Assembly (NCBI GenBank): GCA_003151495.1
Contig: PLXR01000020.1
Location: 265-52,516 of the forward strand
Direction: 5' to 3'
DNA: 52,252 bases
DNA from: Opitutaceae bacterium
GTDB taxonomy: Bacteria; Verrucomicrobiota; Verrucomicrobiia; Opitutales; Opitutaceae
In this document: positions 26,440-48,443 of the stretch, in pieces
Position numbering within the stretch: position 1 is the stretch's first letter
Layout of the letters: the number at the start of each line of letters is the position of its first letter
The notes under the pieces: generated by a model
The model's input: only the letters and a program-made list of their open reading frames with translations
The model's database searches: none
What the model was told of the DNA's origin: nothing
Made by a program: the position numbers and the translations under genes

Positions 26440-26441
26440 TG

Positions 26442-29046: not shown

Positions 29047-30159
29047 TCAGCCCTTTATCCCGGTGAGGGCGATCCCCTCCACAAACTTGCGCTGCGCGAT
29101 GAAGAAGAGGGCAATCACGGGCAAAATGACAAGGGTGCTCGCCGCCATCAGATAGGGCCATTCCGTTCCTCCCGACTCGCTCGTCTTCATCGCGTCAAGA
29201 CCCAGTGCAAGAGTGAAGTCCTTTTCGTCCGTGAGGTATATCAGGGGTCCGAGGTAGTCGTTCCACGCGCCTAGAAAAGTGAACAGACCCACAACGATTA
29301 GCGCGGGAGTGCAGAGGGGAAGAATAATCTGCCAGAAGATCCTGAATTCGCTGCAGCCGTCGATCCGTGCCGCCTCCGAGAGGTCCTTCGGAATCGTCCT
29401 GAAGAATTGCCGCAGGAGAAACACGTTGAACGCATTTGCAAAGAACGAGCCCACCCAGAGGGGCTGAAGCGTGCCCACCATGCCCAGCGAGCGGAACAGA
29501 CCGTAAAGCGGCACCATGACCACAGGGAATGGGATCATCATTGTCGCCAGCATGAGGCCAAAAAGGGGCTCGCGCCCCTTCCACTCAAGGCGCGCAAAAC
29601 CGTAGGCGACCATCGCGCTCGATAGCACCGTACCCACGACATTGAGGAGGCAAAGGATCAGCGTGTTGCCCAGATAGCGGGAGAAATGTCGCATCGAATG
29701 AACGGCCCTGGGAAAATTTTCCCAGCGGAATGAGACCCGCGAAGTGATCTCTGAGACGGGCACGACATCCTCGAGGGTCCCATCCAGGCTCCCAATCTCG
29801 CACCATGGCCGCGTCTCGGAGGATGGAACGTCGCGGACTATCGCGACGTCAACAGGCCCGCCGACGGCAGGATGCCACGCCCCGTCCCACACTGCGCTCT
29901 TCGGAACCACGACCGGTCGCTTCGCCCCGACTGCGAGCACCCACAGGCTGCTCCCGGTGACGAGCGCGCCGGGCCGAACCTCCTGGCGCCTTCCGCCGAT
30001 CTGCGCCTCGTAGCGCCGCGGCAGCCACGAGTGCGGTTGCGAGAGGGTCTGGTCGATCGGCTTCAACGCGGTCAGCACCATCCAGGCAAAGGGCAGGACA
30101 AACATCGCGGCTCCCGCTATAAGGACGAGGTAAACCAGAATCTTGTATCGGGCTCTCAT
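29047..30159 (-). CDS. Sugar ABC importer permease (MalG/CUT1 type) with an enlarged periplasmic loop
   Basis: A 370-residue inner-membrane protein. TM1 is at residues ~8-30 and five further helices follow from residue ~160; the cytoplasmic EAA loop reads SEAARIDGCSEFRIFWQIILPLC. MalG-type permeases are normally about 275-280 residues; here about 95 extra residues (~50-142), rich in beta-type sequence (GSSLWVLAVGAKRPVVVP), sit in the first periplasmic loop. The ATG at 30159 lies 5 bp after the partner permease stop; a longer frame upstream is just overlap. Last gene of the GH3 operon. It should import the sugars captured by the lipoprotein encoded just upstream. Confidence 0.88.
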   Translation of the reverse strand: MRARYKILVYLVLIAGAAMFVLPFAWMVLTALKPIDQTLSQPHSWLPRRYEAQIGGRRQEVRPGALVTGSSLWVLAVGAKRPVVVPKSAVWDGAWHPAVGGPVDVAIVRDVPSSETRPWCEIGSLDGTLEDVVPVSEITSRVSFRWENFPRAVHSMRHFSRYLGNTLILCLLNVVGTVLSSAMVAYGFARLEWKGREPLFGLMLATMMIPFPVVMVPLYGLFRSLGMVGTLQPLWVGSFFANAFNVFLLRQFFRTIPKDLSEAARIDGCSEFRIFWQIILPLCTPALIVVGLFTFLGAWNDYLGPLIYLTDEKDFTLALGLDAMKTSESGGTEWPYLMAASTLVILPVIALFFIAQRKFVEGIALTGIKG

Positions 30160-30164
30160 GTCTC

Positions 30165-31052
30165 CTAGTCCCCCTGATAGTGCACAAACCGCCGTGCGAT
30201 TCGCGAGGCCAGCAGCGTCAGGACCAGGATGAGCATGCAGAGAATCCATGCCATAGCCGAGGCATACCCCATGTGGCGGTACTCGAACGCATTTTGATAG
30301 ATGTATATCGCGTAAAAAAGAACCGAACGCTCGGGACCCGCGCCGCCCATCATGATGAACGCCGAAGTGAAAACCTGTAGGCCCCCGATGATCCCGATGA
30401 GGAGATTGAAATAGATCACGGGTGAAATTGCCGGGAGAGTCACGTGGACGAGCCTCCTCCACGGCGAGGCTCCGTCGATCATGGAGGCCTCGATCAACGA
30501 CTGAGGGACGCCTTGCAACGCCGCCAGGTAGATGACCACCGTATTCCCGCATCCCCAGAGAGAGACAAGCGCAAGAGACGGCTTCGTCCATTTCGGGTCG
30601 ACAAGCCATTGCGGGGGATTGCTGAATCCCAACGCATCGAGAGCTTGGTTGAGCAGGCCCAGGCGGCCGTTCAGGATCCATAGCCACACCATGGCGCCCG
30701 CCACGGCGGGCACGAGCGACGGCAGGTAATAGATCGCCCTGAACGTACCCTTCAACTTCACAGGCTGATTTAGGAGGAGTGCGAGCAAGAGCGCCGAGAC
30801 AAGGCCCAGGGGGAGTGCCATCAAATTGAAGACCAGCGTGTTCCTCACCGATTGCCAGAAGACGCTGTCCGAAAGCATGTCCTGGTAATTGAGAAACCCG
30901 ACCCACACTGGCTTGGACAGGACATCATAGTCGCAGAACGAGAAGTAGATCGACGCGCAGACAGGATAGAGCGTAAAAACGACAAAACCCAGAAGCCACG
31001 GGCTTACAAACGCCAGTCCCGCGACGGATTGCCTGCGCTCACCAGGCGTCAT
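30165..31052 (-). CDS. Sugar ABC importer permease (MalF/UgpA/CUT1 type)
   Basis: A 295-residue inner-membrane protein with six helices and the EAA loop IEASMIDGASPWRRLVHVTLP. It starts inside the end of the binding-protein gene (14-bp overlap) and stops 5 bp before the second permease gene, so the three are translated together. It forms a heterodimer with the larger permease. No ATPase gene is present in the operon or window, so a shared MsmK/MalK-type ATPase encoded elsewhere is presumably used. Confidence 0.92.
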   Translation of the reverse strand: MTPGERRQSVAGLAFVSPWLLGFVVFTLYPVCASIYFSFCDYDVLSKPVWVGFLNYQDMLSDSVFWQSVRNTLVFNLMALPLGLVSALLLALLLNQPVKLKGTFRAIYYLPSLVPAVAGAMVWLWILNGRLGLLNQALDALGFSNPPQWLVDPKWTKPSLALVSLWGCGNTVVIYLAALQGVPQSLIEASMIDGASPWRRLVHVTLPAISPVIYFNLLIGIIGGLQVFTSAFIMMGGAGPERSVLFYAIYIYQNAFEYRHMGYASAMAWILCMLILVLTLLASRIARRFVHYQGD

Positions 31053-32460
31053 ATGCCCTCCATTCGGACAAGCGCTCGTTGCCGACGATGTCCCACCGTC
31101 TCATGACCCTGTCGAACTTCCACTCCACCCTGCTTTGCACTTCCGCAAGTGCCTCCGCCGGCGTCATTCGAAGGTTCAACACCCGCTCACGTGCCACCGC
31201 GAGCTCGGCGTCGTACTCATGCCAAATGGGAATGCGCGGAACATATCGGGCTCCGGGACTGCGCGAAATCTCCATGAACAGCTTTATGGCCGGGTTTGGA
31301 TGCCCAACCAAGAATCCATCGGACACCTCGCGCAGCGCCGTGAACTTCTGCTGGGACTTTGCGAGCTTCTCGGCGACATCCTGACGCTGGAGGTAACAGA
31401 TGAATTCGAGCGCCTCGCGCGGGTGTGGGGCTCCGTGGGGGATGACTACGACGTCGCATTGCGCCAGCGTCACGGGCGCCCCGCCGCCCACCCCGTCGGC
31501 CGGGGGGCACGCCGCGGCCCCCCACTCAAGGCCTGGCGCAAACTTCGAGATGAAATTCGGCATCCAAGGACCCTGGACCACCATGGCCTCTGCGCCCCCA
31601 AGGAAGGGGGTCTGTGCAGACTGGGCCACGCCGAAACCCTCGATGAAGCCTCGAAGATTCTCCACGCCATAAATCTCGGCGGTCCTGCGCATCCACTCGT
31701 ATGCCGCCAAATTGCCATCGTCATTCGCAACGATTCGCCGGTCGCCGTCGTAAAAACGGGCACCAAACCAGGCGCCCCATCCCGACAGGAACATTCCCGC
31801 GTCCTGCGGCAGGTGCCCAACTTGCACCAGCGAGTATTTCCTGCCCTCGCGCTCGGCGGGGGTAAGGTCCTCGAAGGAGACATGCACACGTCGGTTGGCA
31901 CGCTCTATCTCAACGAGCGTCAGGCGTCGGCTCATGCTCTCGAACTCGCCAAAGGTCCTTGGGGGCCGCTCGGGATCCAATCCCGCCGCTCGGAATAGCT
32001 TTTTGTTGTAGAATAAGGCAACGCAGCCGGGTGTGGTCGGCAGGCCCCAGGTGAACCCGCGGTGGCGGCACAGATCCCAGAACAGGGGAATATATCGGTC
32101 AGCCCCGATTCCCGCCTTAGCGAGGCCCCGATCCAGTGGCGTTAGTGCTCCCTTCTCAGAGAAATCCGGGATATTCTCCGACCAGAGTCCCGCAACGTCT
32201 GGCGGGTGCCCGCTCGAGGTCGCCAGGAGCAGCTTCGTGTCGACGCCGCTCACCGAAAGGAACCTCACCTCTATGCGATCCTGGCTGTGGTTGAAGTCGT
32301 CAACGACCGCCTGCATCGAGTCGGCCTCAAACCCACTCCATTTCTCCCAGTAGTTAACGATCACCCGCCCACCCGGTTCCGGCATCGCAGCGTGCCGCGC
32401 GCAGCCGGCCGTGCAAACGACAACGGCCGCAAGGAGCCAGCGATGGAGGGGTTCGGACAT
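31039..32460 (-). CDS. Sugar-binding lipoprotein of the ABC importer
   Basis: A 473-residue extracytoplasmic solute-binding protein of the sugar (CUT1) type. The N-terminus LLAAVVVCTAGC is a lipoprotein signal with Cys at residue 20. The mature part opens with VIVNYWEKWSG and continues with DDFNHSQDRIEVRFL and PPDVAGLW, typical of family 1 sugar-binding proteins. ATG at 32460 is preferred because it puts the lipobox at the right distance. It lies 31 bp after the glycoamylase-domain gene and overlaps the first permease gene by 14 bp. By context it should bind beta-1,2-gluco-oligosaccharides, which sequence alone cannot prove. Confidence 0.88.
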   Translation of the reverse strand: MSEPLHRWLLAAVVVCTAGCARHAAMPEPGGRVIVNYWEKWSGFEADSMQAVVDDFNHSQDRIEVRFLSVSGVDTKLLLATSSGHPPDVAGLWSENIPDFSEKGALTPLDRGLAKAGIGADRYIPLFWDLCRHRGFTWGLPTTPGCVALFYNKKLFRAAGLDPERPPRTFGEFESMSRRLTLVEIERANRRVHVSFEDLTPAEREGRKYSLVQVGHLPQDAGMFLSGWGAWFGARFYDGDRRIVANDDGNLAAYEWMRRTAEIYGVENLRGFIEGFGVAQSAQTPFLGGAEAMVVQGPWMPNFISKFAPGLEWGAAACPPADGVGGGAPVTLAQCDVVVIPHGAPHPREALEFICYLQRQDVAEKLAKSQQKFTALREVSDGFLVGHPNPAIKLFMEISRSPGARYVPRIPIWHEYDAELAVARERVLNLRMTPAEALAEVQSRVEWKFDRVMRRWDIVGNERLSEWRAYDAW

Positions 32461-32491
32461 TGCTGACAGATGTAGGCGCTCGCCTATCCTC

Positions 32492-35353
32492 TTACTCGAG
32501 CCGTACGGTTCCCAGACCAAATCGGTCATCTGCACGGACATAGTACCGCCAACTGAGCTCGAGGGAGGGATCCCATTCGTTGTTTCCTCCGGCGGTCACA
32601 CTGGCCGTAGCGTCGAACTCCAACCCAGGGCGTGGCACCAAGCCAAGCTCGGACCAATTGATGTCAGCATCCACGCGGTAGCCGTCCCTCGTCCTTCTGA
32701 TTCGGGCGATTGTGGAGTGCTTGTGAAACCATTCCATGGCAGTGCCGTCGGGCTTGAAAGCGAATTGGAAGTCGTTTGGAGAAAGCCAGACCAACCCATC
32801 GCGCTTCGGGTTGATGAACAATTCCACGGAGCGCCGGCCAGCGGGTTCGGTGAACCCCTGCGGCACATCCAGGACCTCGGCGTGGAAATGGAGCGCATCC
32901 TTGTCCCATGTCAGCGCAAAACGCAGCGCAAGATCCGGGTCCCCGGGGCGAACGTCCGCCGCGGAGTACCTGTACTCGGCTCCCTTCACAAGTATCCAAT
33001 TCCACTTGTCGCGCGCCAAGGTCGACCTGACAGCACTGGTGTGGCGTTCCGGGGGCACCACCGCTGGAACGGCAAGCTCGTTTCGAGCGAACACCGAGTT
33101 GTCCCCGCCGAATGCAGCCCTCTGGAACTCCTGGATTTCCGTGCGGCCGTTCTGGACAAGCGGGTCCTGCTGGAACCATTCGCGAAAGCAGTCTGGAGCC
33201 AGGAGGTTCGCCACGCTGAGGAGCAGTATGGCGCGATCTTCCACGGTCGACTGGTCCAGCCAACCTGCCGGAAGCGGCGCGAGCTTCAACGCCGCCGCAG
33301 CCTCCGCTGGATAGTGCTCAAGAAGCAATGCCGTGTTCTGGACACCATAGGGGAACACCGCCGTCGATGTCTTTCTGTTCTCGACCGCGATCGCGTAGGC
33401 GAGCTGCGAGGCAGAGGCGCCCGTCACAATCGATCTTTCGTCGAGCCAAATGCCGGGTACCAGCTGGTCCCGCACTTGAGCGGGCTGCAAGACATAGACG
33501 TGCCCCACGGCCTGCGACGCCCTCTTCAATCCCGTCCAGGCGGTGGGCGCCTTTGCACCGGTGGCAACCTGGAAGAACACCGCGAGTCGGCTGGCCGACC
33601 CGAGCTGGTTGGATTCGATGACCAGGTTGTTCCAGTTGAGTTTCGCGAGACGCCTTGTGGCCTCGGGAGAAAACGAGGGTATCGCCTGCCGGATGGTCGC
33701 GAGGCTCGCCGCGTACGGAGCAATCGCCCGCTCGCCGGTCGGCTCCGGGGTTGACTTCAGCATGAGCGATATGCGGTTTGCTGCCTCATCCGACGGGATA
33801 AGGCCAAGCGTGCTGGCGGCCAATATTGCCGATAGCCTCACCCCAAGCGTGTCGCCACTCGCAGGGGCCGACTCTATTGATTTCCAGGCGCTGGAGGCCA
33901 TTTCATGGAATTTCCGCTTGTCGGTTAACGGCAGGTCACGTTTTTGGGAGACGAATCCGGCGCGTATGAGTGCGCGCTGAACCTCGGGCGCCTGCATAAA
34001 GACTGCCCATACAAACCCGGTCCTTGCATTCTCGGCCTGGAGGAGCGTTATGCCCAGGTCGATCCCGATCACGTCGCTGTTGACCCATCCCGTGCCCGGA
34101 TTGAATGCGTCCACGAAGCCATAGCGGCTCCATATCCGGTCGCCGAACGCGGCGCGCATGTAGCGCAGCGTCTCCATGGCCTCGGCAGGCACAAAGGCCA
34201 CCGAACCCGCAGCCGCGCAGGGAACTATTGTTCCGTCCAGGGCATTGTCCTCATCTGTCCGCGGAGGGCCGCCCCACGCCTTGTATCCCGACGCCGAATC
34301 CGAGGCCGTTATCCCCCAAAGCCGCTCACCCCATGAAGGGAACTCGCTTCTCAGGTCCGTGCAAAACTGCCGTTGGGCCAGCGATGCGAGGACCGAGTTG
34401 TGGTAGTAATCCGCGTAGGCGTCGCGCAGGTCACGGAAGTCCACGTGAGCGTGAGTGAACTGGTGGATGAACAGCTGCGGTCCCTCGATGAAATGGTACC
34501 CCGCGTAGCTGTCCACAGGCGTTCGAGACCATGCGTCCCAATAGCCCACCGGGAGCGGGCGCTCCAGCGCGCCCATGCCCAGGAACCCAAGCATCATGTC
34601 CTCCGCGTACTTGTCCCAGCGATAGCGCGAGAAGCCGTGTTCGTCATGCCAGCCCATGGCCAGGGTAGATCCCCCGTTCAAAAACCACTCCCAGTCGACA
34701 TCATGGAAGAGGCGGTCGACGAGCGCCGTGACTTCCTCATCGGCAAAGAACTCCCTGGCGACTATCGCTCCTGCAAAGAAGAGACCGGTATCGATCGGCG
34801 AGAGCTCGCACTTCCACGCACGCTCCCCAGTACCCATTTCCATGAAATGGTAAAAGAAGCCGTGTCGCCGCGGCGCCTTGTCCACAAGGAATCTGAGGGC
34901 GATCCGCACGTGCCTGAGCGCCGTCTCGCGGTCGGTCCAACCGCGCTGCGTGGCCACCGCCCAAGCGCTCAGAGCGAAACCCGAGGCCGCGATGCTCGCT
35001 TTCCCTTCACTCTGAGAGCCGCTGGCCCGGGCGCGGTCGCGGACCAGGCCGGTCTTGGGGTCCGCCTGCTCGACAAAATACCGAAACGCGGACTGTTGGA
35101 GTTCGTCCAGGACCGCATCGTCCTCAGGCGACAAGACCGCCGACGGCCGGGCGCCGGGCCACGGCGGCAGGCCCTTTTCCGCGCGTGCCGGCAAGGCGAG
35201 CGCAATGAGGATGATCAAGGCGAGCCCGATTGGGTGCACCCCCCCAAGGCGCTTCACGGACGGAAGCAGCAGCAATGCGCGCCCGTTCAGTCTGCAGTTA
35301 AGAGTTCGTGCGGAGCCTCGGGTTGCGTGGGGTCTTTGCTTCGTCACGACCAA
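32492..35353 (-). CDS. Glycoamylase-domain (PF10091, GH144-related) protein with C-terminal CBM9-like domain
   Basis: Up to 953 residues. A signal helix (HPIGLALIILIALALPARA) ends near residue 58. Residues ~75-480 are a glycoamylase-type (alpha/alpha)6 domain: FRYFVEQADPKTGLVRDRA, SIAASGFALSAW, HDVDWEWFLN, YHFIEGPQLFIHQFTHAHVDFR, DGTIVPCAAAGS and YGFVDAFN. Where GH144 enzymes have D-L-V-E, this one has D188-T-G-L, so the chemistry may differ. A linker-like region (480-750) and a CBM9-like beta sandwich (~760-953) follow. The start is unsure: 35353 is TTG; a GTG at 35257 would place the signal at the N-terminus. Second gene of the GH3 operon. Confidence 0.75.
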   Translation of the reverse strand: MVVTKQRPHATRGSARTLNCRLNGRALLLLPSVKRLGGVHPIGLALIILIALALPARAEKGLPPWPGARPSAVLSPEDDAVLDELQQSAFRYFVEQADPKTGLVRDRARASGSQSEGKASIAASGFALSAWAVATQRGWTDRETALRHVRIALRFLVDKAPRRHGFFYHFMEMGTGERAWKCELSPIDTGLFFAGAIVAREFFADEEVTALVDRLFHDVDWEWFLNGGSTLAMGWHDEHGFSRYRWDKYAEDMMLGFLGMGALERPLPVGYWDAWSRTPVDSYAGYHFIEGPQLFIHQFTHAHVDFRDLRDAYADYYHNSVLASLAQRQFCTDLRSEFPSWGERLWGITASDSASGYKAWGGPPRTDEDNALDGTIVPCAAAGSVAFVPAEAMETLRYMRAAFGDRIWSRYGFVDAFNPGTGWVNSDVIGIDLGITLLQAENARTGFVWAVFMQAPEVQRALIRAGFVSQKRDLPLTDKRKFHEMASSAWKSIESAPASGDTLGVRLSAILAASTLGLIPSDEAANRISLMLKSTPEPTGERAIAPYAASLATIRQAIPSFSPEATRRLAKLNWNNLVIESNQLGSASRLAVFFQVATGAKAPTAWTGLKRASQAVGHVYVLQPAQVRDQLVPGIWLDERSIVTGASASQLAYAIAVENRKTSTAVFPYGVQNTALLLEHYPAEAAAALKLAPLPAGWLDQSTVEDRAILLLSVANLLAPDCFREWFQQDPLVQNGRTEIQEFQRAAFGGDNSVFARNELAVPAVVPPERHTSAVRSTLARDKWNWILVKGAEYRYSAADVRPGDPDLALRFALTWDKDALHFHAEVLDVPQGFTEPAGRRSVELFINPKRDGLVWLSPNDFQFAFKPDGTAMEWFHKHSTIARIRRTRDGYRVDADINWSELGLVPRPGLEFDATASVTAGGNNEWDPSLELSWRYYVRADDRFGLGTVRLE

Positions 35354-35379
35354 TTGTTGAGAATCTCGGCGCCTCCCTC

Positions 35380-37683
35380 TTACTCAGTGATATCGACCCG
35401 AAGAGGATCGCCAACAGAGGAATCAGACGCCACCCACACGTAAAGGGTTCCCTGCTCCACCACATTTTTCATATCGAGGTTCCAGAACGACAGTTCCTCG
35501 CGGTCGAGGTTAAACGCCAATTGGCTGCTCTCCCCGGGCTCTAGATGGACCCTCTTGAAACCCTTCAATTCACGCACCGGCCGCGCCACGCTGGTGCCCC
35601 GCAACCGGATATAGAGTTGCGCCGTCTCCGTGCCCACCCTTGTCCCACTGTTGCGGACGTTCGCGTTCACCGTAAGCTGCGCCCGGCCCGCGTTTACCGC
35701 ACTGGCACTGATGCTCGCTGCGCTCACCTTCACCCCTGAGATCTCAAAGGTGGTGTAGCCAAGTCCGTACCCGAATGGGTAAAGAGGCGTGTTCAATTCG
35801 TCGATGTAACCCGATACGTAGTAGGGATCTGACTTGGTGCTCCCAAGGCCTATCGGATCCACCCGCGGTCGCCCGGTATTTAGCCGATTGTAGTACATCG
35901 GTACCTGCCCGACAGACCGCGGCACCGACACTGTGAGACGGCCGGATGGCTCAGCCTCACCAAACAGGGTGCGCACAAGGGCCGGTCCTCCCTGAAGCCC
36001 GGGGAACCAGGCCATTAAGATGGCAGGAACATTTCGCGACGCCCATTCTACGGCAAGCGGGCGCCCGCTGAAGAGAATCAGCACCGTCGGCTTCCCCGTT
36101 GCGACGACCGCCTCGAGAAGTTCCTCTTGGTGTCCTGGCAGGTCAATTCTGGAGCGTGCCGAAGCCTCGCCGGAGCTGTGCCCACTCTCGCCCAGTGCCA
36201 GGATCACTAGATCTGATTGACGGGCTGCCTCCACAGCAGCGGCGATCCCCGATGTCTCCGATCCTGCCGCATTCATACCTTGTGTCACGGTGAGGCCCAC
36301 GTGCAACCGCTCCAATCGCGGCGCCAGGGCCATCCTCAGGGTGACTACGTCGCTAGCCCTCCCCTCTCCCGACCACGGACCCAGCATGTCGCCCGCGCTG
36401 TCCGACAACGGTCCGATCAAGGCGACTCGCTGTCCGGCCACCGGAGCGATCGGAAGTAGCGGGAAGCCCGCCACCTTTCGGTTCTCGAGCAGGACAAAGG
36501 ACTCCTCGGCCGCCCGCCGGGCGAGTTCCCTGCTTGCGGGAACCTCCGTGGGATTTGCGTCGACGACCTCGGGCACATAGGGACGCTCGAACAGACCAAG
36601 CGCGAACTTGATCCTCAAAACTCTCCGAACGGCATCATCCAGCCTGCCGACCGGAACCCTGCCCGATTTCACCAAGTCCGGGAGATGCGGCAGGTAAGCT
36701 GCGCTTTGCATGTCCATGTCAACACCAGCCAGGAAACTCTTTTGCGCCGCGGCCTCATCGTTCTCCGCTATACCGTGGAGCGTGATCTCATGCACGGCGG
36801 TCCAGTCGCTGTCCACGAAGCCCTGAAACTTCCATTCGTTGCGCAGGACCTCCGTTAGCGTGAACGCATTCGCACTCGACGGCACTCCGTTGATAGAATT
36901 GAACGCCGACATGATCGTCCCCGCCCCTTCGCCCACGGCGGCGCGGAACGGAGGAAGGTAGACATCCCTGAGCGTTCGCTCGGAGATCTCGGTCGTGTTG
37001 TAGTCGCGTCCACCCTCAGCCGCTCCGTAGCCCACAAAATGCTTCGCGCACGCCACTATGGACGAGGGATCATCGAGTCGCCTTCCCTGATAGCCCCGGA
37101 CATAGGCCCTCGCGAAGGCCGACCCTAGGTATGGATCCTCGCCCGCGCCCTCCGCTATCCTTCCCCACCTCGGGTCTCGAGCGATGTCCACCATCGGCGA
37201 GAATGTCCAGCGGACTCCCTGACTCGACGCCTCTTGCGCGGCAACGCGCGCCGTCTGCTCGACCAGGTCGGTATCCCAGCTCGAGGAAAGCCCGAGGGGA
37301 ATTGGGAAGGTGGTCCGAAAGCCGTGGATCACATCGAGCCCGAATAGGACGGGAATGTGAAGTCGCGAACCCTCGATGGACTCCCTCTGGTACGCGTTAG
37401 TCTCCTTCCAAGTCACGGAGTTGAAGAGGCTGCCTACCATTCCCGTCCTGATCAGGGCGTCCCCATCCCTCACGACACTCGAAGGACCTGTTAGTGAGCC
37501 CGAGGACAGCTGGTTCAGCTGCCCCACCTTTTCCTCGATGGTCATCTTCGCGAGAAGCGCGTCTATCTTCTGCTCGGTTTGAGGAGTGCTCAGGGAAGCC
37601 CCCTGAGCCTCAGCTCGAAAAGGGACGACGGCCAATTGGACGGCTGAGACGACCGTCAGAGTGAGGATTTTGGTACGGTTCAT
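35380..37683 (-). CDS. GH3 beta-glucosidase (BglX-like), exported
   Basis: A 767-residue enzyme with a signal peptide (KILTLTVVSAVQLAVVPFRAEA). The GH3 N-terminal barrel shows RWTFSPMVDIARDPRWGRIAE (split here for brevity), CAKHFVGYGA and the nucleophile D293 in GFVDSDWTAVHE. The C-terminal alpha/beta domain has LALGESGHSSGEA, and a fibronectin-III-like domain ends the protein. BglX-type enzymes remove glucose from the non-reducing end of beta-glucans; many cleave sophorose (beta-1,2). First gene of a five-gene operon with the PF10091 protein and the ABC importer. A LacI-type site lies 122 bp upstream, shared with the divergent GH144 gene. Confidence 0.93.
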   Translation of the reverse strand: MNRTKILTLTVVSAVQLAVVPFRAEAQGASLSTPQTEQKIDALLAKMTIEEKVGQLNQLSSGSLTGPSSVVRDGDALIRTGMVGSLFNSVTWKETNAYQRESIEGSRLHIPVLFGLDVIHGFRTTFPIPLGLSSSWDTDLVEQTARVAAQEASSQGVRWTFSPMVDIARDPRWGRIAEGAGEDPYLGSAFARAYVRGYQGRRLDDPSSIVACAKHFVGYGAAEGGRDYNTTEISERTLRDVYLPPFRAAVGEGAGTIMSAFNSINGVPSSANAFTLTEVLRNEWKFQGFVDSDWTAVHEITLHGIAENDEAAAQKSFLAGVDMDMQSAAYLPHLPDLVKSGRVPVGRLDDAVRRVLRIKFALGLFERPYVPEVVDANPTEVPASRELARRAAEESFVLLENRKVAGFPLLPIAPVAGQRVALIGPLSDSAGDMLGPWSGEGRASDVVTLRMALAPRLERLHVGLTVTQGMNAAGSETSGIAAAVEAARQSDLVILALGESGHSSGEASARSRIDLPGHQEELLEAVVATGKPTVLILFSGRPLAVEWASRNVPAILMAWFPGLQGGPALVRTLFGEAEPSGRLTVSVPRSVGQVPMYYNRLNTGRPRVDPIGLGSTKSDPYYVSGYIDELNTPLYPFGYGLGYTTFEISGVKVSAASISASAVNAGRAQLTVNANVRNSGTRVGTETAQLYIRLRGTSVARPVRELKGFKRVHLEPGESSQLAFNLDREELSFWNLDMKNVVEQGTLYVWVASDSSVGDPLRVDITE

Positions 37684-37791
37684 GGGATGGTATCCCCGGC
37701 GGTTTCAACTGGCATATCGCATGAATCCAAGATGAATCCGTCGGGAGACTTCGGGGCCAAGAGCAAACGCCATGGGGATGGCCCCGCGCCC

Positions 37792-37834
37792 CAAAGTCTC
37801 CTTTTGACAACATTTGCATTGCAACCAAAAAGGA
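37792..37834. repeat. 43-bp regulatory repeat, copy B
   Basis: Second copy of the segment found at 26442-26484 (39 of 43 identical, same orientation), located between the divergent GH3 and GH144 genes. It encloses operator site B. Outside these limits the two regions differ, apart from scattered matches, so the conserved block is sharply bounded around the palindrome. Confidence 0.85.
37805..37818 (-). promoter_or_regulatory. LacI-type operator, site B (GH3 operon and GH144)
   Basis: On the minus strand the 14-mer reads TGCAAATGTTGTCA and is preceded by TTGCAA; on the plus strand TTGACA at 37804-37809 resembles a -35 box. It lies 122 bp from the GH3 start and 60 bp from the GH144 start, so one site could control both divergent units. 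Confidence 0.65.
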
Positions 37835-37877
37835 GGTCTCCCGAAGTCCAGCAACGGAATGTAACCGAAGCGAAAGA

Positions 37878-40223: not shown

Positions 40224-40250
40224 TTGCAATGACAATGTTGTCATTACATT
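40224..40250 (+). promoter_or_regulatory. Putative promoter with LacI-type operator, site C (TonB receptor)
   Basis: TTGCAA (40224-40229) as a -35-like box and TACATT (40245-40250) as a -10-like box are 15 bp apart, slightly short. The spacer is almost exactly filled by TGACAATGTTGTCA (40230-40243), a perfect TGACAA/TTGTCA inverted repeat, extended by one A/T pair. A repressor bound there would exclude RNA polymerase. The operator is well supported; the -10 box is weak. The leader to the ATG at 40333 is about 75 nt. Confidence 0.6.
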
Positions 40251-40332
40251 TGTTCTGGAATCCCTACCCCCGGAGCGGCTCGCAACGAACCCCTATTTCG
40301 CCGCGCATCGCAGCAACTCGGACATCACTACA

Positions 40333-43197
40333 ATGCACACCCTACAAACAAGCAGATTCGCGCTGGCCACCATCCTGGCGCTTGGCCTTGGAAGTTACCT
40401 TAAATCGCAGGACGCCACGCCGCCAGCCGTCGCAGTGGACAACAGCAAGGTTGGAAACGAGGAGCCGATTGTCCTCAGCACCTTTACGGTGGATACGACG
40501 ACGGACGTCGGATACACCGCGGTAAATTCCCTCGCAGGCGGGAGGAACAATACACCGCTGGCGATCACGCCATCAACGGTCACGTCCCTGACGAAGGAGT
40601 TTCTTGACGATCTCCAGCTCACCAACGCGACAGACGCGATGAAGTGGACGATGAACGCGATTCCGGCGAACTTCACGCCGAACGTCGGTAGTGGAAATGA
40701 ATTCAACTCGTGGGCCGACAACATTCGCGGCGCCGGAGCCGGGGCCCAGGGCGGCACGCCTCCGACGGTGAACTACTTTCCGATCTACGCGGTGAAGGAC
40801 TTTTTCAACGTCGACCGCTATGAGCTGGACCTCGGGCCCAACTCGATTCTGTTCGGCGTCGGCAACCTGGGCGGAGTAGCGACTTCCTACACGAAGATCC
40901 CTCGTTTCGACAAGGACTTCATAGAGATGAACCTTCTCCTGAACAGCTATGGCGGTGCGCGCGCCACCTTTGACGTCAATAATCTCCTTTCCCTGATCAA
41001 GAAGAACGACTTCGGCATGCGCATCAACATCCTCGCGGACCGGGACGCAAGCTGGAGAAAGGACGATGTGACGAAGAAGCTCGGCGTGTCGCTCGCTACG
41101 ACACTCAAGCTCTCGGACAAAACCTCGGTCCGCCTTGATCTCGAAGCCTACAAGCAGATAACGCCGATGTTCGTCGAAAACCAGACCGACCAGTACTCCC
41201 AGTGGGATGGGCAGACAAACTCACCGACATGGGGAGCCGCACCGGTGACCTCCTCCGGGGCTCCTGCACCCCAGAACAGCTATAACTCAATGGCAGCCTG
41301 GGGAGGCCCCGCCTCGTTCCAACTTTGGATTCCCCAGGAGGGGAAGATTGCGAACTGGGGCGCTGGATACCGGGCGTCGGGTCTTGGCGACGGGCCCTAC
41401 TACACCAACACCGTTATGCGGCCCTATTCTTACACCTTGATCGGCACCAACTTGGTTGTGCCCGCCTTGCCAAGCAGGGACTTCACAGTGGGCCCGCAGG
41501 ACGGCATCAACACTCTGAAGTACTACACCGCCACCGTCTATTTTGACCAGAAGATCAACAACAACTCTGAATTTGAACTCTCTGCCTATCGTTTCTCCGA
41601 CAACGAGGACTCCAAGAATTTCGAGTCACCGAGCAACGTATCGATCGACATCAACAAACAGCTGCCAGATGGCTCAACGAATCCCGAGTACGGCCAGCGC
41701 TATTCGGACATGTTCCTCGACAGGCAAATTCAAGACCACAGCGTCAATGAGTTCCGTGGACAGCTTAACTACCATTTCGACACGGTCGTCTTCAACATTC
41801 CGGTAAAGGAGTGGATGAGTGTCTCCGGTGGAGACGAGTTCCACCTTCTGAGCACCCGTGAGTACAACGGCAGCTTTGTAAGTTATCCGCTGCCGTGGAA
41901 CGGAAACAACTGGACCCAGGACATGATCTGGGCGCGGGAATATTGGAACGATCCGCATGTCTCGGTCAATCTGCCTTCGATACTCAACGGACAGCGCACA
42001 ACCTACCAGGCCCTCCCCTTCAACTGGTTCGACCACGACCTCAGCGAGCAAATACAATACCTAGGAGCCGTGTCGCAGACACGCCTTTGGGATGATCGCC
42101 TCAATGTAACCCTCGGTGCTCGCCACGACCAATACAAGAGCGACATCTTCAGCGTTCGCCCCCCGATTGGACTCCCGTTTCCCGGTGGTCACACCTATGA
42201 GAACGACAAGGGCAACACATACTCCGCCGGCATTGTCGGGTTCGTCACCAAGTGTCTGGCATTGACCTACAACTTCTCGGAGAATTTTGCGCCCATCGGA
42301 GGCGGCGTGGCCCCGGGCCTTTCGGGCGCCGCGTTCGGACCTGCAAAGGGCTCGTCGAGCACTGTCGGCGTGCGCCTCTCGACCGACGACAAGCGCTACT
42401 ACATATCGGCCGACCTTTATAGGGATAAGTCGAAGGGCCGCATAAGCGGCGACAACATTCCCATCCAAGGAATCTGGAACGATTACTTCCTGGCGGGAGG
42501 AACGGCCACGAACATAGGGCCGGCGGGGACGCTATCAGGCACAGCCCCGAACCTGGCCACGCAGTTCAACTATGCGGACACGGAAGACATCAAGGACAAC
42601 GGATTCGAGATCAGCGGTACAGCGAACCCGACGCCGAACTGGCGCTTTCAGGCTTCGTACGCCACGCCGAAGTCGCAATCCGCCAACGACCTGCCTGGGT
42701 CGCGTGCCTATTTTGCGGAACACCTTGCGGATTGGCAGGCGATCGCGAGTGGCGGGACAAAGCTTGATGGCCAGGTGGCTACCGACCTCACCAACGCAGA
42801 GCGGACTCTCAGCAACACCTCGGCCAGCCCCGACAACGCGGGTGTCGTGAAGTCGACATTCAATTTCGTTGCCGCATACACGTTCACCGACTCTTTTGCC
42901 AAGGGCCTCTCCATCGGCGCAGGCGCCACGGCACTCGGCGAACAGCGGATCTCGACGGGGGGAACCATGTTCTCACCCGCGTACACCACCTACATCGCGT
43001 TCCTCAGTTACTCTACCTCATACAATCTCATGGGCCAGCGGGTGCATGTGCGCTACCAGCTCAATGTGGACAACCTGACCGACAACCGAAACCTGGTCTT
43101 TACGCAATTCAACCAGGTTGGCACCCAGACCCAGGGATCCAACTACTACCTCATCGATCCCCGGAAATTCACGTTGGGGCTCACGGTGAAGTACTAG
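40333..43197 (+). CDS. TonB-dependent outer-membrane receptor
   Basis: A 954-residue protein. A signal-like N-terminus (FALATILALGLGSYL) is followed by the acidic TonB-box-like region IVLSTFTVDTTTDVGY, a plug domain (about 65-190, with NIRGAGAGA and DLGPNSILFGVGNLGGVAT) and a large beta-barrel ending in FTLGLTVKY, whose C-terminal aromatic residue is usual for barrel insertion. The VDTTTDVGYTAVNSLAGG start is typical of the expanded receptor family in Opitutaceae. Such receptors import oligosaccharides or chelates; the gene context points to beta-1,2-glucan fragments. LacI site C lies upstream and a strong terminator follows. Confidence 0.9.
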   Translation: MHTLQTSRFALATILALGLGSYLKSQDATPPAVAVDNSKVGNEEPIVLSTFTVDTTTDVGYTAVNSLAGGRNNTPLAITPSTVTSLTKEFLDDLQLTNATDAMKWTMNAIPANFTPNVGSGNEFNSWADNIRGAGAGAQGGTPPTVNYFPIYAVKDFFNVDRYELDLGPNSILFGVGNLGGVATSYTKIPRFDKDFIEMNLLLNSYGGARATFDVNNLLSLIKKNDFGMRINILADRDASWRKDDVTKKLGVSLATTLKLSDKTSVRLDLEAYKQITPMFVENQTDQYSQWDGQTNSPTWGAAPVTSSGAPAPQNSYNSMAAWGGPASFQLWIPQEGKIANWGAGYRASGLGDGPYYTNTVMRPYSYTLIGTNLVVPALPSRDFTVGPQDGINTLKYYTATVYFDQKINNNSEFELSAYRFSDNEDSKNFESPSNVSIDINKQLPDGSTNPEYGQRYSDMFLDRQIQDHSVNEFRGQLNYHFDTVVFNIPVKEWMSVSGGDEFHLLSTREYNGSFVSYPLPWNGNNWTQDMIWAREYWNDPHVSVNLPSILNGQRTTYQALPFNWFDHDLSEQIQYLGAVSQTRLWDDRLNVTLGARHDQYKSDIFSVRPPIGLPFPGGHTYENDKGNTYSAGIVGFVTKCLALTYNFSENFAPIGGGVAPGLSGAAFGPAKGSSSTVGVRLSTDDKRYYISADLYRDKSKGRISGDNIPIQGIWNDYFLAGGTATNIGPAGTLSGTAPNLATQFNYADTEDIKDNGFEISGTANPTPNWRFQASYATPKSQSANDLPGSRAYFAEHLADWQAIASGGTKLDGQVATDLTNAERTLSNTSASPDNAGVVKSTFNFVAAYTFTDSFAKGLSIGAGATALGEQRISTGGTMFSPAYTTYIAFLSYSTSYNLMGQRVHVRYQLNVDNLTDNRNLVFTQFNQVGTQTQGSNYYLIDPRKFTLGLTVKY

Positions 43198-43238
43198 GCC
43201 GATAGCGAACCATCCCGACGTCTCCCAGGCGTCGAGCC

Positions 43239-43275
43239 AAACAGCCAACGGCTTCACCCGTTGGCTGTTTTTCTT
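43239..43275 (+). terminator. Rho-independent terminator after the TonB receptor gene
   Basis: A perfect 13-bp stem (43239-43251 with 43258-43270), core AGCCAACGG/CCGTTGGCT, with a 6-nt loop CTTCAC and a T-rich tail (GTTTTTCTT). It starts 41 bp after the receptor stop codon and separates it from lacI. Confidence 0.92.
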
Positions 43276-43369
43276 GGCTGATATCCCCAAAACGGAATTG
43301 ACCGCCGTCGACATCGCCGCGCCCCATATGATTTGCAGCGACCTTGTCATTTCCTTTCTACTTGATAGA

Positions 43370-43386
43370 CAGGTCCTAGCGACCTG
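43370..43386. promoter_or_regulatory. Inverted repeat upstream of lacI
   Basis: CAGGTC (43370-43375) and GACCTG (43381-43386) form a perfect 6-bp inverted repeat around a 5-nt spacer, four bases before operator site E. It may be a second operator of another type or part of the promoter; TTGTCA at 43344-43349 could be the -35 box. Significance is uncertain because the arms are short. Confidence 0.3.
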
Positions 43387-43390
43387 CCGC

Positions 43391-43404
43391 TGCAAATCTT
43401 TGCA
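43391..43404 (+). promoter_or_regulatory. LacI-type operator, site E (lacI itself)
   Basis: TGCAAATCTTTGCA is a perfect TGCAAA/TTTGCA inverted repeat with a 2-bp centre, 15 bp before the lacI ATG. It shares the TGCAAA half-site with sites B and D. Its location suggests autoregulation of the repressor gene. Confidence 0.55.
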
Positions 43405-43419
43405 ACAGATTGCTTGCAG

Positions 43420-44538
43420 ATGAAGCCTTCGATCGCTGTCTTCCATCGTCCAACGTCGATGCCCCTCTCAAACCGCACTAAGAAGCCGAAAGACGGCATT
43501 GTTCAAATAGCGACTCGCTTGGGAGTTTCGCCATCGACGGTCTCCCGCGCGCTGCGGCCCGAGACGGCGCATCTTGTGAGCCCCGAGCGACGGAAAGAAA
43601 TTCTCGATCTCGCGGACCGCCTTCGCTTCTCGCCCAATCCGGGAGCGCGCATCCTTCGTAGGGGGCTGAATACGACTCTGACCGTCGTGGTTCCGCTCGA
43701 TGAAAATATCTTCTTTTCAGAGTTCTACGGGCGTTTCCTGGCAGGATCTCTCCATGCCGCTGCCGCCCGCGGCTGGGACGTTCACATCTGCACGCTGCGA
43801 AAGACAGTCCGCTCTGACTTTCGGGAGGCCTTGCAGCACCTTGGCCTCAACTCGTCTGGAATCATCTATTTCGCGGAACCCCTATCCGAAAGCGACGTGC
43901 AGAAGCTGGAGGGCTACCGCAGGCCTCTGGTTCTAACGAAATCGGTGCTTCCGCCCCTCGTTGACCTCTCCTTGATCGGAGCGCCGGTGGTCGGCATCGA
44001 TAACCGGGCAGGCGCGCGCGCAGCCGCTTCGCTCCTGTTGCAGCTCGGCCACAAGAAGATTGGTCTGATTCTCGGCCCGCAGAGTTCCAGGGATGCCCTT
44101 GAGCGAAAAGAGGGTTACCTCGAAGCCCTCACACTGGGCGGGGCCACCTCTAAACCGTCATGGATGTTCGAAGGGCCCTTCAATGCGGAGACCGGCCGGG
44201 CGGCAATGGCTGCTTTCCTGCGCACAAGTGACCGACCGACAGCGGTATGTTGTGCGAATGATGAAATCGCCTTCGGGGTGATAGATGCCGTGCGCACGGC
44301 CGGCCTGCGGTGCCCGAATGACCTTTCAGTGGTCGGCTTCGATGACGGTATGTGGGCCACCGCGTGCAGACCCGCGCTGACAACGGTGCGCCAGCCCCTG
44401 GCGGACCTTGCCGAACGTGCCGTGAGCCTGCTGGTTGAGGCTGCGACAAGGCCCCCCTCGCCCCATTCGCGGATAGCCGGCGACATGCCCGCGGCATTGG
44501 TCATCAGGGATTCAACGCGAGTTTTGGCTTCTGGTTAG
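43420..44538 (+). CDS. LacI-family transcriptional regulator
   Basis: A 372-residue DNA-binding regulator. The helix-turn-helix is near residue 30 (IVQIATRLGVSPSTVSRAL) with the hinge region at NPGARILRR, followed by a periplasmic-binding-protein-like sensor domain (VVGIDNRAGARAAASLLLQLGHKKIG, then CANDEIAFGVIDAVRTAG and LSVVGFDDG). Family members repress sugar genes until an inducer, here probably a beta-1,2-oligoglucoside, binds. ATG at 43420 is used; an in-frame ATG at 43459 closer to the HTH is also possible. It lies between the TonB receptor and GH94 genes; five matching palindromes nearby are its probable targets. Confidence 0.92.
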   Translation: MKPSIAVFHRPTSMPLSNRTKKPKDGIVQIATRLGVSPSTVSRALRPETAHLVSPERRKEILDLADRLRFSPNPGARILRRGLNTTLTVVVPLDENIFFSEFYGRFLAGSLHAAAARGWDVHICTLRKTVRSDFREALQHLGLNSSGIIYFAEPLSESDVQKLEGYRRPLVLTKSVLPPLVDLSLIGAPVVGIDNRAGARAAASLLLQLGHKKIGLILGPQSSRDALERKEGYLEALTLGGATSKPSWMFEGPFNAETGRAAMAAFLRTSDRPTAVCCANDEIAFGVIDAVRTAGLRCPNDLSVVGFDDGMWATACRPALTTVRQPLADLAERAVSLLVEAATRPPSPHSRIAGDMPAALVIRDSTRVLASG

Positions 44539-44705
44539 CGCTACGCCCAAGACAACGATTGCAGCCGACCCGCCCTGGAAGGGTGCCATGGGAGAATTGG
44601 GTCGGCACCTGCTGGGGGTTTCGCAGTCGATGCGGTTTGCTGTGCGGGGCTTCCGCTATCCATACAAGCGGGCCAGCTTTGCACGGCCTCGCAGGGGGAA
44701 TTTGT

Positions 44706-44733
44706 TTGTCTTGCAAACGTTGTCATCTATATA
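44706..44733 (+). promoter_or_regulatory. Sigma-70-like promoter of the GH94 gene
   Basis: TTGTCT (44706-44711) and TATATA (44728-44733) are separated by 16 bp, and the spacer is filled by operator site D. This is the best promoter-like pair in the window and its layout (operator between -35 and -10) implies direct repression. Confidence 0.6.
44712..44725 (+). promoter_or_regulatory. LacI-type operator, site D (GH94)
   Basis: TGCAAACGTTGTCA, with the classical central CG of LacI-family operators. It differs from site B (minus strand) only by C for T in the centre, and shares the TTGTCA half-site with B and C. Confidence 0.68.
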
Positions 44734-44954
44734 GGAACCAAGTTTTGACGGCCATTCCTTGCCCAACGGAAAGTGAGTCCCCAGAGACCGCGGTCTGGCG
44801 CGCCTGATTCCCTATCTTTTCCTGCCCAATCCTTTAGCAAATGACCCGAGAGCCGAAAACAGAATGTCGTTTCAGACCCATCCTTCGCTCGGACTCGGGC
44901 GCGGGCGCGATGCTCCCGAGATCGGCGTCCCGGAGCGACCGTTGACGAGCCTCC

Positions 44955-47900
44955 ATGAGCGGAACGAATGCGATGACACCCCCAGCGCCCTCATTCCGGT
45001 CGCCCGCGGATTTGACTCTCGGCACTACGGCCACATTTGGGCTGACCGAGCTGAGTTCCCCTTCCGGGCTGTCGATTCAAGTCACCCCAGCTGGAGCCAT
45101 TTACGCGGTTCGCCATGCATCGACCCTCATCAATCAGTTCATCCCGGGGCCCGCGGAGGATGGGCTCTGCCGACTGCTGATCAGGTGGCGTTGCTCCGAC
45201 GGGGGCTCGGGCTGGTCTCCCCTGATCGGCCCCACCGTGTCCCACCGGCGGATAGGAATTTTAGCCATGGAGTGGATTTCCATCGTTGGGCCAGGTTTGT
45301 CGTGCCGTGCATGCCTCACGCTCCATCAGGAGCTGATGGCCTGGTCATGGCGTGTCCTGATCGGGAATGCCACTCCAGCCCCGGTCAAGGTCGACGTACT
45401 CTTCGCCCAGGACCTCGGTCTGGCCGATGCTGCCGCGGTTCGAAACAATGAGGCGTTCAACTCCCAGTACATCGACCTGCTTCCTGTGGAGGACGAGCAC
45501 CTGGGTTGGACAGTTCTCGCCCGGCAGAACCAGGAGGCGGGCGGGGGCCGGCACCCGTGGCTGGCCGTCGGATGCGATAAGGGAGCCGTCGCCTACGGCA
45601 CCGATGGCACCCAGTTTTTTGGCGAGGACCATAGGCTTGTGGGAGTGCCCGCTGCCGTGCGCACCGAGAACCTTCCCAAGGTGCGGCTGCAGTCCGAGTG
45701 CGCCATGGCCTCACTCCAGAGCCGCTCCGCGAGCCTATACCCCGGGTCCTCAACCGAGATCGATTTCCTTGTCCGTTACATGGCCGACCATCCTATGCCC
45801 TCCTCCCGGTCGGACCTTGCGCGACTCTGGGAGATTGCGCCGGCGAATTGGTCTGCGACCCATAGGATTGGGGCGTTGGAGACACCGGTGCTGCTCGAGG
45901 CCCCCTGCCCCTCCCTCTTCGTGAACGCCCCATGGGCTCACGGAGACGCGCCCTCCAACGAGGATCTGGCAAAATTGTTTCCCGGGGCGACCCGCCATGA
46001 GGAAAGGGACGAGGACGGGCACCTGCTGGCGTTCTTTCACGGTTTGGACAGCCATGTCGTGTCGCGCGCAAAGGAAGCGGTCGTCGCCCGGCCGCATGGC
46101 CACATTCTGCGGAGCGGCACGTGGCGATGGATCGACAATGAGCAGTTTGGGACCACCTGCTATGCGGCGGGGGTATTCAGCGCGCAGACCTACCTCGGGA
46201 ATCCCACCTTCGGAAGGTTGCTGTCTGTCGTCCGAAATGCCCTCGGGTTGGGCCGCGCGGCCGGCCAGCGCGTATTCGTCCGCCGGCTCGGCGCCTGGCA
46301 CCAGCTGGGCATCCCGTCCGCCTTTGTGATGACGCCGTCGGAGGTCCGGTGGGTCTATCTCCTGGGAACCGATGTCATCGATGCGCGCGTGTGGTGCTCT
46401 CAGGAATGCGCGGCGTCATTTCTCGACTTGAGCGTGAGATCGGGCGGCGCGGCGGCTGAGTTTCTGGTCACTCACACGGTCACCCTGGGCACCAACGAAT
46501 TTGACGCTCCGGGCCGGCTGCGGTTCAGCCATGACGAGGGCTGGGTCGCCTGCGAGCCCGACCCGGCGGGCATGCTGGCAAAGAGCAACCCCGGGGCCTG
46601 CTTTGCGATAGCCTGCGCGCAGGCCGGGGGGTGCGCGCAGCTCGGCGCCGACGAGATGGTATTCCCGGACGAGATCTCTCGTGGACACCCGTGCGTGGCC
46701 CTGCGTTCGGGCATCGTGACTCGCTTCGGGGTGATCCTCTGCGGGACGACCGAAGGCGCCGTATCGATGCAAAAGCTCCTCGAGGATGCCCGGAGGGAAT
46801 GGTCCGACGGCGGCTCGTGCTCGGCCCCGCCCCCCACGCCCGTGCGCCTGTCGGGCGCCGCCGGAGGCGCGCGGGCCGTTTCCCGGCTCGACGAGGTCCT
46901 CCCTTGGCTTAACCACAATGCCGCCATCCACTTCTCCGCGCCGCACGGCCTGGAGCAGCAGGGGGGCGCCGCGTGGGGGGTCCGTGACGTGTGCCAGGGC
47001 TCCGTCGAATGGCTCCTATCGGGATGCCAATGGCCGCTCGTCCGGCGCCTCCTCCAGAACGTCTTTGCGCAGCAATACGCTCCGGGGGGCACGTGGCCCC
47101 AGTGGTACATGCACCCCCCTTATCAGTCGGTGCAGCATTCCCACAGCCATGGTGACGTGTGTCTTTGGCCCGTTAAGGCGCTGTGCGACTACGTGGAGGC
47201 CAGCAACGACTTTACTTTCCTGCATGCCAAGGTCGGCTATACGGATCCCGGCCGATTTGAGGCGTCTGGACCGGAGGAATCCCTGCTCCAACATTGCGAC
47301 CGGGTCCTGGACCATTGCGAATCCCGTTTTGTGAGGGGCACGGCCCTTGTGAATTTCGGCGACGGGGACTGGGACGACACCCTTCAGCCCGCGAACGCTG
47401 AGGTCCGCACCCGGATGATCAGCAGCTGGACTGTCGCACTGGTCTATCAGGCATTCCGCCAATTCTCCGAAGTGTGCCGGAGGTCGGGCGAGACGGAGCG
47501 CGTGGCCCGGCTCGACGGGCTGCTGGGTCGAATTCGAAAGGACTTTGCTGATTGCCTGATGCCCGGCAGCATCGTCGCCGGCTTCCTGGTCACGGAACCC
47601 AACGGGGTCTCGCGCCCCCTGCTCCACCCGAAGGACACCGTCACCGGCATCCGCTATCGGCTGCTACCCATGACACGGGCGATCCTGGCGGAGCTCTTCA
47701 CCCCCGAGGAGGCCGTCCGCCACAAGGCCGTCATCAGCCGCGAACTCCTCTACCCGGACGGGGCGCGCCTCATGAGCGAGCCGGCAACGTACCGGGACGG
47801 ATGCGAGTACCTCTTCAAGCGGGCCGACACTGCTGCAAGCGTGGGTAGGGAAATTGGCCTGCAGTACGTCCATGCCCATCTCCGGTATGCCGAGGCCATG

Positions 47901-48443
47901 GCCAAGATGGGTGACGCCGAGGGCCTCTGGACGGCACTCCAGGTGGTCAACCCGGTCGGCCTGCACGAGGTGCTCTCGAATGCGCTGCCCCGGCAGAGCA
48001 ATGTCTATTTCTCGAGCTCCGACGCCGATTTCAGCGATCGTATCGAGGCCTCCCGGCGGTGGACCGAATTGCGGACCGCATCCGTGGGGGTGCGCGGGGG
48101 CTGGAGGCTCTACTCGAGCGGACCGGGCATCTACATCCACACGGTAAGGGCGTCCCTGCTCGGGCTGAGGGAATCCTTCGGCGAAATCGTCTTTGACCCC
48201 GTGATCCCCAGCGTCCTGGACGGGCTCTCTGCCCGGGTCACACTGTGTGGCAGGCCGGTGGAACTCCGGTACCGGGTTGGCTCCTCCCCGTTTTCGCCGC
48301 GGGAGGTCCTTGTAAACGGAGCCAGACTCGCCGGCGGACGGCGCGAGCACAATCCGTACAGGGCGGGCGGCCTATGCTTCGCGCAGGCGGCCATAGAAGG
48401 CCTCCTCTCAGATGGCGAAAACGTCGTTTTCGTGCACCTGTAG
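44955..48443 (+). CDS. GH94 phosphorylase of the 1,2-beta-oligoglucan phosphorylase type
   Basis: A 1162-residue protein without signal peptide, so probably cytoplasmic. N-terminal beta-sandwich domains precede an (alpha/alpha)6 barrel (from about residue 620) and a C-terminal beta domain. Barrel marks are FAQQYAPGGTWPQWYMHPPY, HSHGDVCLWPVKALCDYV and NFGDGDWDDTLQP. In GH94 the general acid is the last Asp of a DWND-like motif; here that is D808. The great length and the TWPQWYMHPPY segment fit 1,2-beta-oligoglucan phosphorylases (about 1100 residues), which convert sophoro-oligosaccharides and phosphate to alpha-glucose 1-phosphate. Cellobiose phosphorylases are shorter (~800). Start: first ATG after an in-frame stop at 44943. 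The upstream promoter overlaps LacI site D. Confidence 0.88.
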   Translation: MSGTNAMTPPAPSFRSPADLTLGTTATFGLTELSSPSGLSIQVTPAGAIYAVRHASTLINQFIPGPAEDGLCRLLIRWRCSDGGSGWSPLIGPTVSHRRIGILAMEWISIVGPGLSCRACLTLHQELMAWSWRVLIGNATPAPVKVDVLFAQDLGLADAAAVRNNEAFNSQYIDLLPVEDEHLGWTVLARQNQEAGGGRHPWLAVGCDKGAVAYGTDGTQFFGEDHRLVGVPAAVRTENLPKVRLQSECAMASLQSRSASLYPGSSTEIDFLVRYMADHPMPSSRSDLARLWEIAPANWSATHRIGALETPVLLEAPCPSLFVNAPWAHGDAPSNEDLAKLFPGATRHEERDEDGHLLAFFHGLDSHVVSRAKEAVVARPHGHILRSGTWRWIDNEQFGTTCYAAGVFSAQTYLGNPTFGRLLSVVRNALGLGRAAGQRVFVRRLGAWHQLGIPSAFVMTPSEVRWVYLLGTDVIDARVWCSQECAASFLDLSVRSGGAAAEFLVTHTVTLGTNEFDAPGRLRFSHDEGWVACEPDPAGMLAKSNPGACFAIACAQAGGCAQLGADEMVFPDEISRGHPCVALRSGIVTRFGVILCGTTEGAVSMQKLLEDARREWSDGGSCSAPPPTPVRLSGAAGGARAVSRLDEVLPWLNHNAAIHFSAPHGLEQQGGAAWGVRDVCQGSVEWLLSGCQWPLVRRLLQNVFAQQYAPGGTWPQWYMHPPYQSVQHSHSHGDVCLWPVKALCDYVEASNDFTFLHAKVGYTDPGRFEASGPEESLLQHCDRVLDHCESRFVRGTALVNFGDGDWDDTLQPANAEVRTRMISSWTVALVYQAFRQFSEVCRRSGETERVARLDGLLGRIRKDFADCLMPGSIVAGFLVTEPNGVSRPLLHPKDTVTGIRYRLLPMTRAILAELFTPEEAVRHKAVISRELLYPDGARLMSEPATYRDGCEYLFKRADTAASVGREIGLQYVHAHLRYAEAMAKMGDAEGLWTALQVVNPVGLHEVLSNALPRQSNVYFSSSDADFSDRIEASRRWTELRTASVGVRGGWRLYSSGPGIYIHTVRASLLGLRESFGEIVFDPVIPSVLDGLSARVTLCGRPVELRYRVGSSPFSPREVLVNGARLAGGRREHNPYRAGGLCFAQAAIEGLLSDGENVVFVHL

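Follow-up and report, generated by a model that had tools for sequence, protein, structure and literature searches.

A predicted LacI-controlled locus for the import and degradation of beta-1,2-glucans in an Opitutaceae bacterium

Bacteria produce beta-1,2-glucans, which play a part in symbiosis, infection and osmotic adaptation according to the parts of PMC12102758 that were covered; how these glucans are broken down is poorly mapped. The Listeria innocua cluster lin1838-1843, as described in the covered parts of PMC3960220 and PMC4757417, shares with the locus analysed here a LacI regulator, a GH94 1,2-beta-oligoglucan phosphorylase (SOGP), a GH3 enzyme and an ABC importer. No outer-membrane receptor is expected in that organism. 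With the Ignavibacterium album cluster around IALB_1185 (PMC8861115, covered in part), the present locus shares a pair of GH144 genes, a GH94 SOGP homologue and an ABC binding protein; the authors of that work also suppose a TonB step. Only the I. album cluster contains a GH35 glucosyltransferase, and the paper identifies the binding protein of that cluster as a homologue of Lin1841. The covered text is inconsistent on the presence of a GH3 enzyme and describes no LacI operator. Because a similar route was already speculated for I. album in that text, the general concept is not new; the reading given in the first-pass annotation of the present locus was partly supported. A literature search through titles and abstracts, with subscription papers mostly outside its reach, returned no account of verrucomicrobial SOGP loci, of the operator, of the importer exchange or of the second barrel described below. 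The operator, the exchangeable importer and the hidden second barrel look new.

The window, i.e. the whole stretch of 52,252 nucleotides that was analysed, is C21:265-52516 of a 4.1-Mb assembly (165 contigs, 80% complete). The nine genes named in the first-pass annotation were confirmed at the coordinates given there, 29047-48443 (Table 1). Two arms diverge from 37684-37877. The left arm contains the genes for GH3, a GH144 enzyme (the in-operon GH144), the binding lipoprotein, MalF and MalG; the right arm contains those for a second GH144 enzyme (the divergent GH144), the TonB receptor, LacI and SOGP. The open reading frame of the downstream permease (29047-30906) is over-long, and the match and the sequence place the start near 30159. 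Between membrane helices 1 and 2, this MalG-type permease is enlarged by about 100 residues; its relatives vary, several being as long (370-393 aa) and others having 280 aa. The TonB receptor is weak by Pfam (Plug, 23.5 bits for a cut-off of 23.9) and was also identified from its orthologues in related loci. The combination of an outer-membrane receptor and an inner-membrane importer in one locus is supported, as is the verrucomicrobial host. The Pfam scan found no SusD family among the nine genes, in contrast to a SusC/SusD locus of the Bacteroidota type. The gene after SOGP (48538-50082, minus strand) has a ModA match in its last 225 residues, and the approximately 280 codons ahead of this part resemble a non-coding extension of the reading frame.

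Table 1. Genes, domains and predicted operators of the locus (positions in the window)
Feature	Position	Strand	Basis
MalG-type permease	29047..30159	-	PF00528 9.7e-20; start chosen by eye
MalF-type permease	30165..31052	-	PF00528 6e-19
Sugar-binding lipoprotein	31039..32541	-	PF01547 1.9e-19; start probably 32460; lipobox-like TAGC by eye
GH144 enzyme, probably endo, with second GH-S-like barrel and CBM9 fold	32492..35353	-	PF10091 1.2e-62; 8xul match; models and fold matches
Second GH-S-like barrel, residues 474-745 of in-operon GH144	33119..33934	-	No Pfam match
CBM9-fold domain, residues 770-953 of in-operon GH144	32495..33046	-	
GH3 beta-glucosidase, signal-like N-terminus	35380..37683	-	PF00933, PF01915; NCBIfam BglX; Lin1840 residues kept
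Predicted LacI operator TGACAACATTTGCA, divergent promoter region	37805..37818	.	
GH144 of BDI_3064 type, predicted sophorose release	37878..40127	+	5z06 E 1.5e-199, residues 42-739
Predicted LacI operator TGACAATGTTGTCA, before receptor gene	40230..40243	.	
TonB-dependent receptor	40333..43197	+	Plug just below cut-off; orthologues in related loci
Weaker operator-like site, one mismatch, before lacI	43391..43404	.	
LacI-family regulator	43414..44538	+	PF13377, PF00356
Predicted LacI operator TGCAAACGTTGTCA, before SOGP gene	44712..44725	.	
GH94 protein with SOGP domains	44955..48443	+	Pfam domains; LpSOGP PDB match; residue check

The nine genes are considered, with a probability of about 0.8, to form one LacI-controlled regulon for the import and degradation of beta-1,2-glucans. 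Gene content, conserved residues, operator distribution, the mutual exclusivity of ABC and MFS importers in the loci examined and the predicted folds were observed directly; from these we infer substrate, transport, inducer and activities. The glucan or its fragments would pass the outer membrane through the TonB receptor. Chains would be cut internally by the in-operon GH144, sophorose would be released by the divergent GH144 and the exported GH3 would convert sophorose into glucose. Longer oligosaccharides would enter the cytosol through the ABC importer, driven by an ATPase whose gene lies outside the locus, and SOGP would phosphorolyse them to glucose 1-phosphate, with sophorose left over. 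LacI would control the locus at TGACAAYRTTTGCA-type operators.

The GH94 protein carries four SOGP domains (PF21958, PF21250, PF17167 and PF21270). Its sole full-length PDB match is LpSOGP (5h3z), over residues 40-1155 (E 1.1e-178), and 16 of the 17 LpSOGP positions named in the covered parts of PMC5309861 are identical. The exception, Y141, is F in the locus protein, which counts against the regulon reading; it is also F in 5 of the 12 other aligned homologues. That the locus serves another beta-glucan, e.g. beta-1,3-glucan, was nevertheless judged very improbable. The Y141F change does alter a residue of the LpSOGP pocket, and the related GH3 enzyme Lin1840 also accepts laminaribiose (PMC4757417, covered in part), but the two GH144 proteins, the SOGP-specific domains and the 16 conserved residues point to beta-1,2-glucan. 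The PDB search gave three matches, LpSOGP and two sequences of cyclic glucan synthases. No cellobiose or laminaribiose phosphorylase was among them, and these two assignments were set aside. Both the substrate class and the choice of SOGP over other GH94 phosphorylases, as first annotated, are supported. A SOGP-like protein of another genome (G305, L022:8258-11668, plus strand) has N at the position of the catalytic acid (D760) and changed residues in the +1/+2 pocket; it may thus be inactive or have another role. Many SOGP homologues (e.g. P0016, P0018 and P0019) are named 'CRISPR-associated protein Csx3' at source, which looks like mis-annotation.

The in-operon GH144 combines a PF10091 match with the GH144 fold. 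Its best PDB match is XcSGL (8xul, E 9.6e-56), by a small margin over 4gl3 (E 3.9e-55). By hand count, E251 and F295 align with E239 and F286 of XcSGL, so that the catalytic Glu position seems kept (8xul itself carries E239Q); opposite Y367 the alignment shows a gap. The enzyme is probably endo-acting. Assignment to GH193 or GH194 was rejected, GH144-like chains scoring far above 8xuk. The divergent GH144 matches BDI_3064 of Parabacteroides distasonis (5z06) over its full length (residues 42-739 on 5-700), with both the GH144 domain and the N-terminal region. BDI_3064 is presumably the sophorose-releasing exo enzyme meant in the I. album paper. The covered parts of that paper describe an SGL homologue that has an N-terminal region and acts in exo fashion, with sophorose as its product (PMC8861115). 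Sophorose release is likewise predicted for the divergent GH144. The endo role that the first-pass annotation gave to it was set aside on the full-length 5z06 match; endo-like character belongs to the PF10091 protein of the left arm.

The in-operon GH144 extends about 480 residues beyond its XcSGL-like part. Models and fold matches place there a second GH-S-like barrel and a CBM9 fold, whereas the C-terminal addition of XcSGL is called disordered in the covered parts of PMC12102758. The second barrel is invisible to Pfam. Its clan GH-S fold was assigned with VIA-align; with Foldseek alone, no hit passed E<=0.001, the best one (1.8e-3) being GH144-like. In a weak profile alignment (Prob 3.8%, E 0.011) the catalytic Glu lies opposite a gap, and this barrel is predicted to be catalytically inactive. 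If the assignment is correct, this is a GH144 enzyme with a previously unrecognized second barrel, which may suit cyclic glucans.

By hand count, the GH3 enzyme keeps D270, E473 and R572 of Lin1840 (nucleophile, acid/base and specificity arginine) as D293, E506 and R605. It is named plain BglX by NCBIfam (726.8 bits vs 666), which counts against the beta-1,2-glucan reading. A signal-like N-terminus was recognized by eye on this enzyme and on the GH3 of five loci of the same genus, and the enzyme seems to be exported; Lin1840 was judged cytosolic in the covered parts of PMC4757417. Export would leave the cytosolic sophorose produced by SOGP without a sink encoded in the locus, and this was also counted against. 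A GH3 enzyme without an evident signal peptide, encoded on contig C56, is a candidate for this sink. GH3 proteins of a second class occur in several MFS-type loci, and many of them likewise show no clear signal peptide. The likeness to the Listeria cluster, on which the first-pass annotation had relied, extends to the GH94, GH3 and ABC importer genes; it does not extend to the apparent location of GH3 or to the binding protein.

Among PDB entries, the binding protein matches 4r9f best (MBP1, E 2.4e-37). Lin1841, to which it is distantly alike, matches residues 61-207 only (E 4.7e-12), so Lin1841 is not its closest solved relative, and this too was counted against the regulon reading. No ATPase was found among the nine genes; the whole assembly has one OB_MalK match, on contig C158, which would be the ATPase of the importer. 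The closeness to MBP1 would suit an importer that is a bystander for another sugar, the pathway being made up of the other six genes only. Among 20 stretches around relatives of the importer, 18 lack a GH144 match (present in 2/20) and SOGP is found in 0/20. The importer family is thus not confined to the beta-1,2-glucan pathway, and this was counted against the beta-1,2-glucan reading. The importer genes are, however, tightly packed behind GH144 in an arm that starts at an operator. The importer is also found next to GH144 and/or SOGP in four genomes outside the family, which are more distant (G206, G309, G367 and the Kiritimatiellae locus L074), and SOGP is present in 5 of the 11 other genomes with its closest relatives (E<=1e-137), compared with 27 of 387 sampled genomes. 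Together with its alternation with MFS carriers in 26 of the 32 loci of the family, this makes a bystander role unlikely. The genome of the window has another binding protein together with another MalG-type permease from this importer family (G000:C26, L179:9687-13116), and the stretch around them has no GH144 match.

SOGP_N was detected in 27/387 sampled genomes of the phylum and in 31/250 genomes of the family, with 32 loci in the latter. By tblastn, seven of these loci have the ABC importer (the window, five of its genus and G393), 19 have an MFS carrier, none has both and six have neither. Of the last, G467, G526, G474b and G539 lie near contig ends, and G560 and G569 have a divergent SOGP. 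Five MFS carriers were scanned, four from the family and another (G134) from the order, and all have PF13347. Since the MFS carrier occurs in the locus of sister lineages where the ABC importer is absent, the two doors are likely interchangeable. If so, two importers can be compared on one core. The SOGP tree, built with a quick method, requires two changes of importer type, G393 being placed beside the MFS locus G143 (support 99). Two swaps were not accepted as proven, the in-operon GH144 tree forcing no more than one change and the binding-protein tree grouping the seven ABC loci in one clade (support 100), next to G309/G344. With this clade, a single origin of the ABC loci or a transfer of the module may also account for the pattern. 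The SOGPs of G309 and G344 adjoin the Opitutaceae clade on the SOGP tree as well. An ancient ABC importer that was replaced by MFS in most lineages would fit. Several MFS-type loci enclose GH31 enzymes (L040:11575-13737, L033:3036-5378 and L059:15112-17283, all on the minus strand); none was found in ABC-type loci. A wider comparison was made with the best 80 of 589 named SOGP loci. A TonB receptor model trained on Opitutales, which may miss distant receptors, matched in 11 of the 15 Verrucomicrobiota loci and in 0 of the other 65. The 49 Bacillota loci among these 80 have a GH3 in 37 cases and a MalG-type permease in 40.

A shared operator did not emerge from a search for strict palindromes, but did from counting k-mers ahead of the locus genes. 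The motif TGMMAAYRTTKKCA occurs exactly at 37805, 40230 and 44712 of the window, and with one mismatch at 43391 and 26455. No further exact site occurs in the 4.1-Mb, 80%-complete assembly, all three lying within the locus (control, 0); the incompleteness of the assembly was counted against. An exact site was present in 25 of the 27 loci with a LacI orthologue (at least 58% identity), with 44 sites for 0.05 expected from shuffles. The two remaining loci (G476 and G566) have one-mismatch sites, and their lack of an exact one was counted against the regulon reading. Among the 23 loci without a LacI orthologue, the site was found in one (G474a), whose genome has a LacI orthologue in a second locus. 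Because the motif had been learned from the same loci, the count was repeated without the genus. The top 14-mer was then TGACAACGTTTGCA, present in 17 of the 21 other loci. Its exact copy in the window is at 44712. The site at 37805 differs from it at one position and those at 26455 and 44550 at two; the site at 40230 has more than two mismatches to it, which counts against the regulon reading. In 23 whole genomes, TGACAAYRTTTGCA was found in 13/13 with a LacI-SOGP locus and 0/10 without; one of these ten (G099) has SOGP and no LacI orthologue in the stretch fetched. Of the 23 TGACAAYRTTTGCA sites in the 13 genomes, 20 are in the locus and three elsewhere, each of these beside a GH144-like gene (33-37% match); the one in G375 has a TonB receptor next to it as well. 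As G181 and G169 are closely related, the off-locus sites represent two lineages. Judging from this distribution, LacI probably acts at predicted operators of the TGACAAYRTTTGCA type before three transcription starts. If this holds, a short operator points to further beta-1,2-glucan genes across the family.

The locus might instead mainly recycle cyclic beta-1,2-glucan made by the host itself, rather than use the glucan of other bacteria. A cyclic glucan synthase-like gene is indeed present on contig C129 of the same assembly. In the 250 family genomes, such a gene (E<=1e-40) was found in 37 and SOGP in 31, with both in 10 for about 4.6 expected if independent; within the genus, 5 of the 8 genomes with SOGP combine the two. 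Conversely, 21 of the 31 SOGP genomes, many genomes being incomplete, lack the synthase-like gene at E<=1e-40, and none of the three operator sites lies at the synthase gene. Foreign glucan is therefore the likelier food. The TonB receptor and the secreted enzymes would also point outward, and recycling as the main role was judged quite unlikely. CBM9 domains grip reducing ends. A speculative and rather unlikely extension of the preferred reading is that the in-operon GH144 is a purpose-built opener of cyclic beta-1,2-glucans, in which the dead GH-S barrel would hold the ring, the live barrel would cut it and CBM9 would grip the new end; it would belong to an operator-defined Opitutales regulon with ABC and MFS importers exchanged on one phosphorylase core, in a host which also makes such rings.

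Outside the locus, an alpha-N-acetylglucosaminidase (NAGLU) gene overlaps a DUF5009/acyltransferase-like gene (22970-26478, minus strand). The pair was rejected as a member of the regulon, the one-mismatch site at 26455 having no counterpart near NAGLU in the three relatives with that gene nearby. NAGLU lies near the SOGP locus in G436, G498 and G143, accompanied by DUF5009 in G436 and G498.
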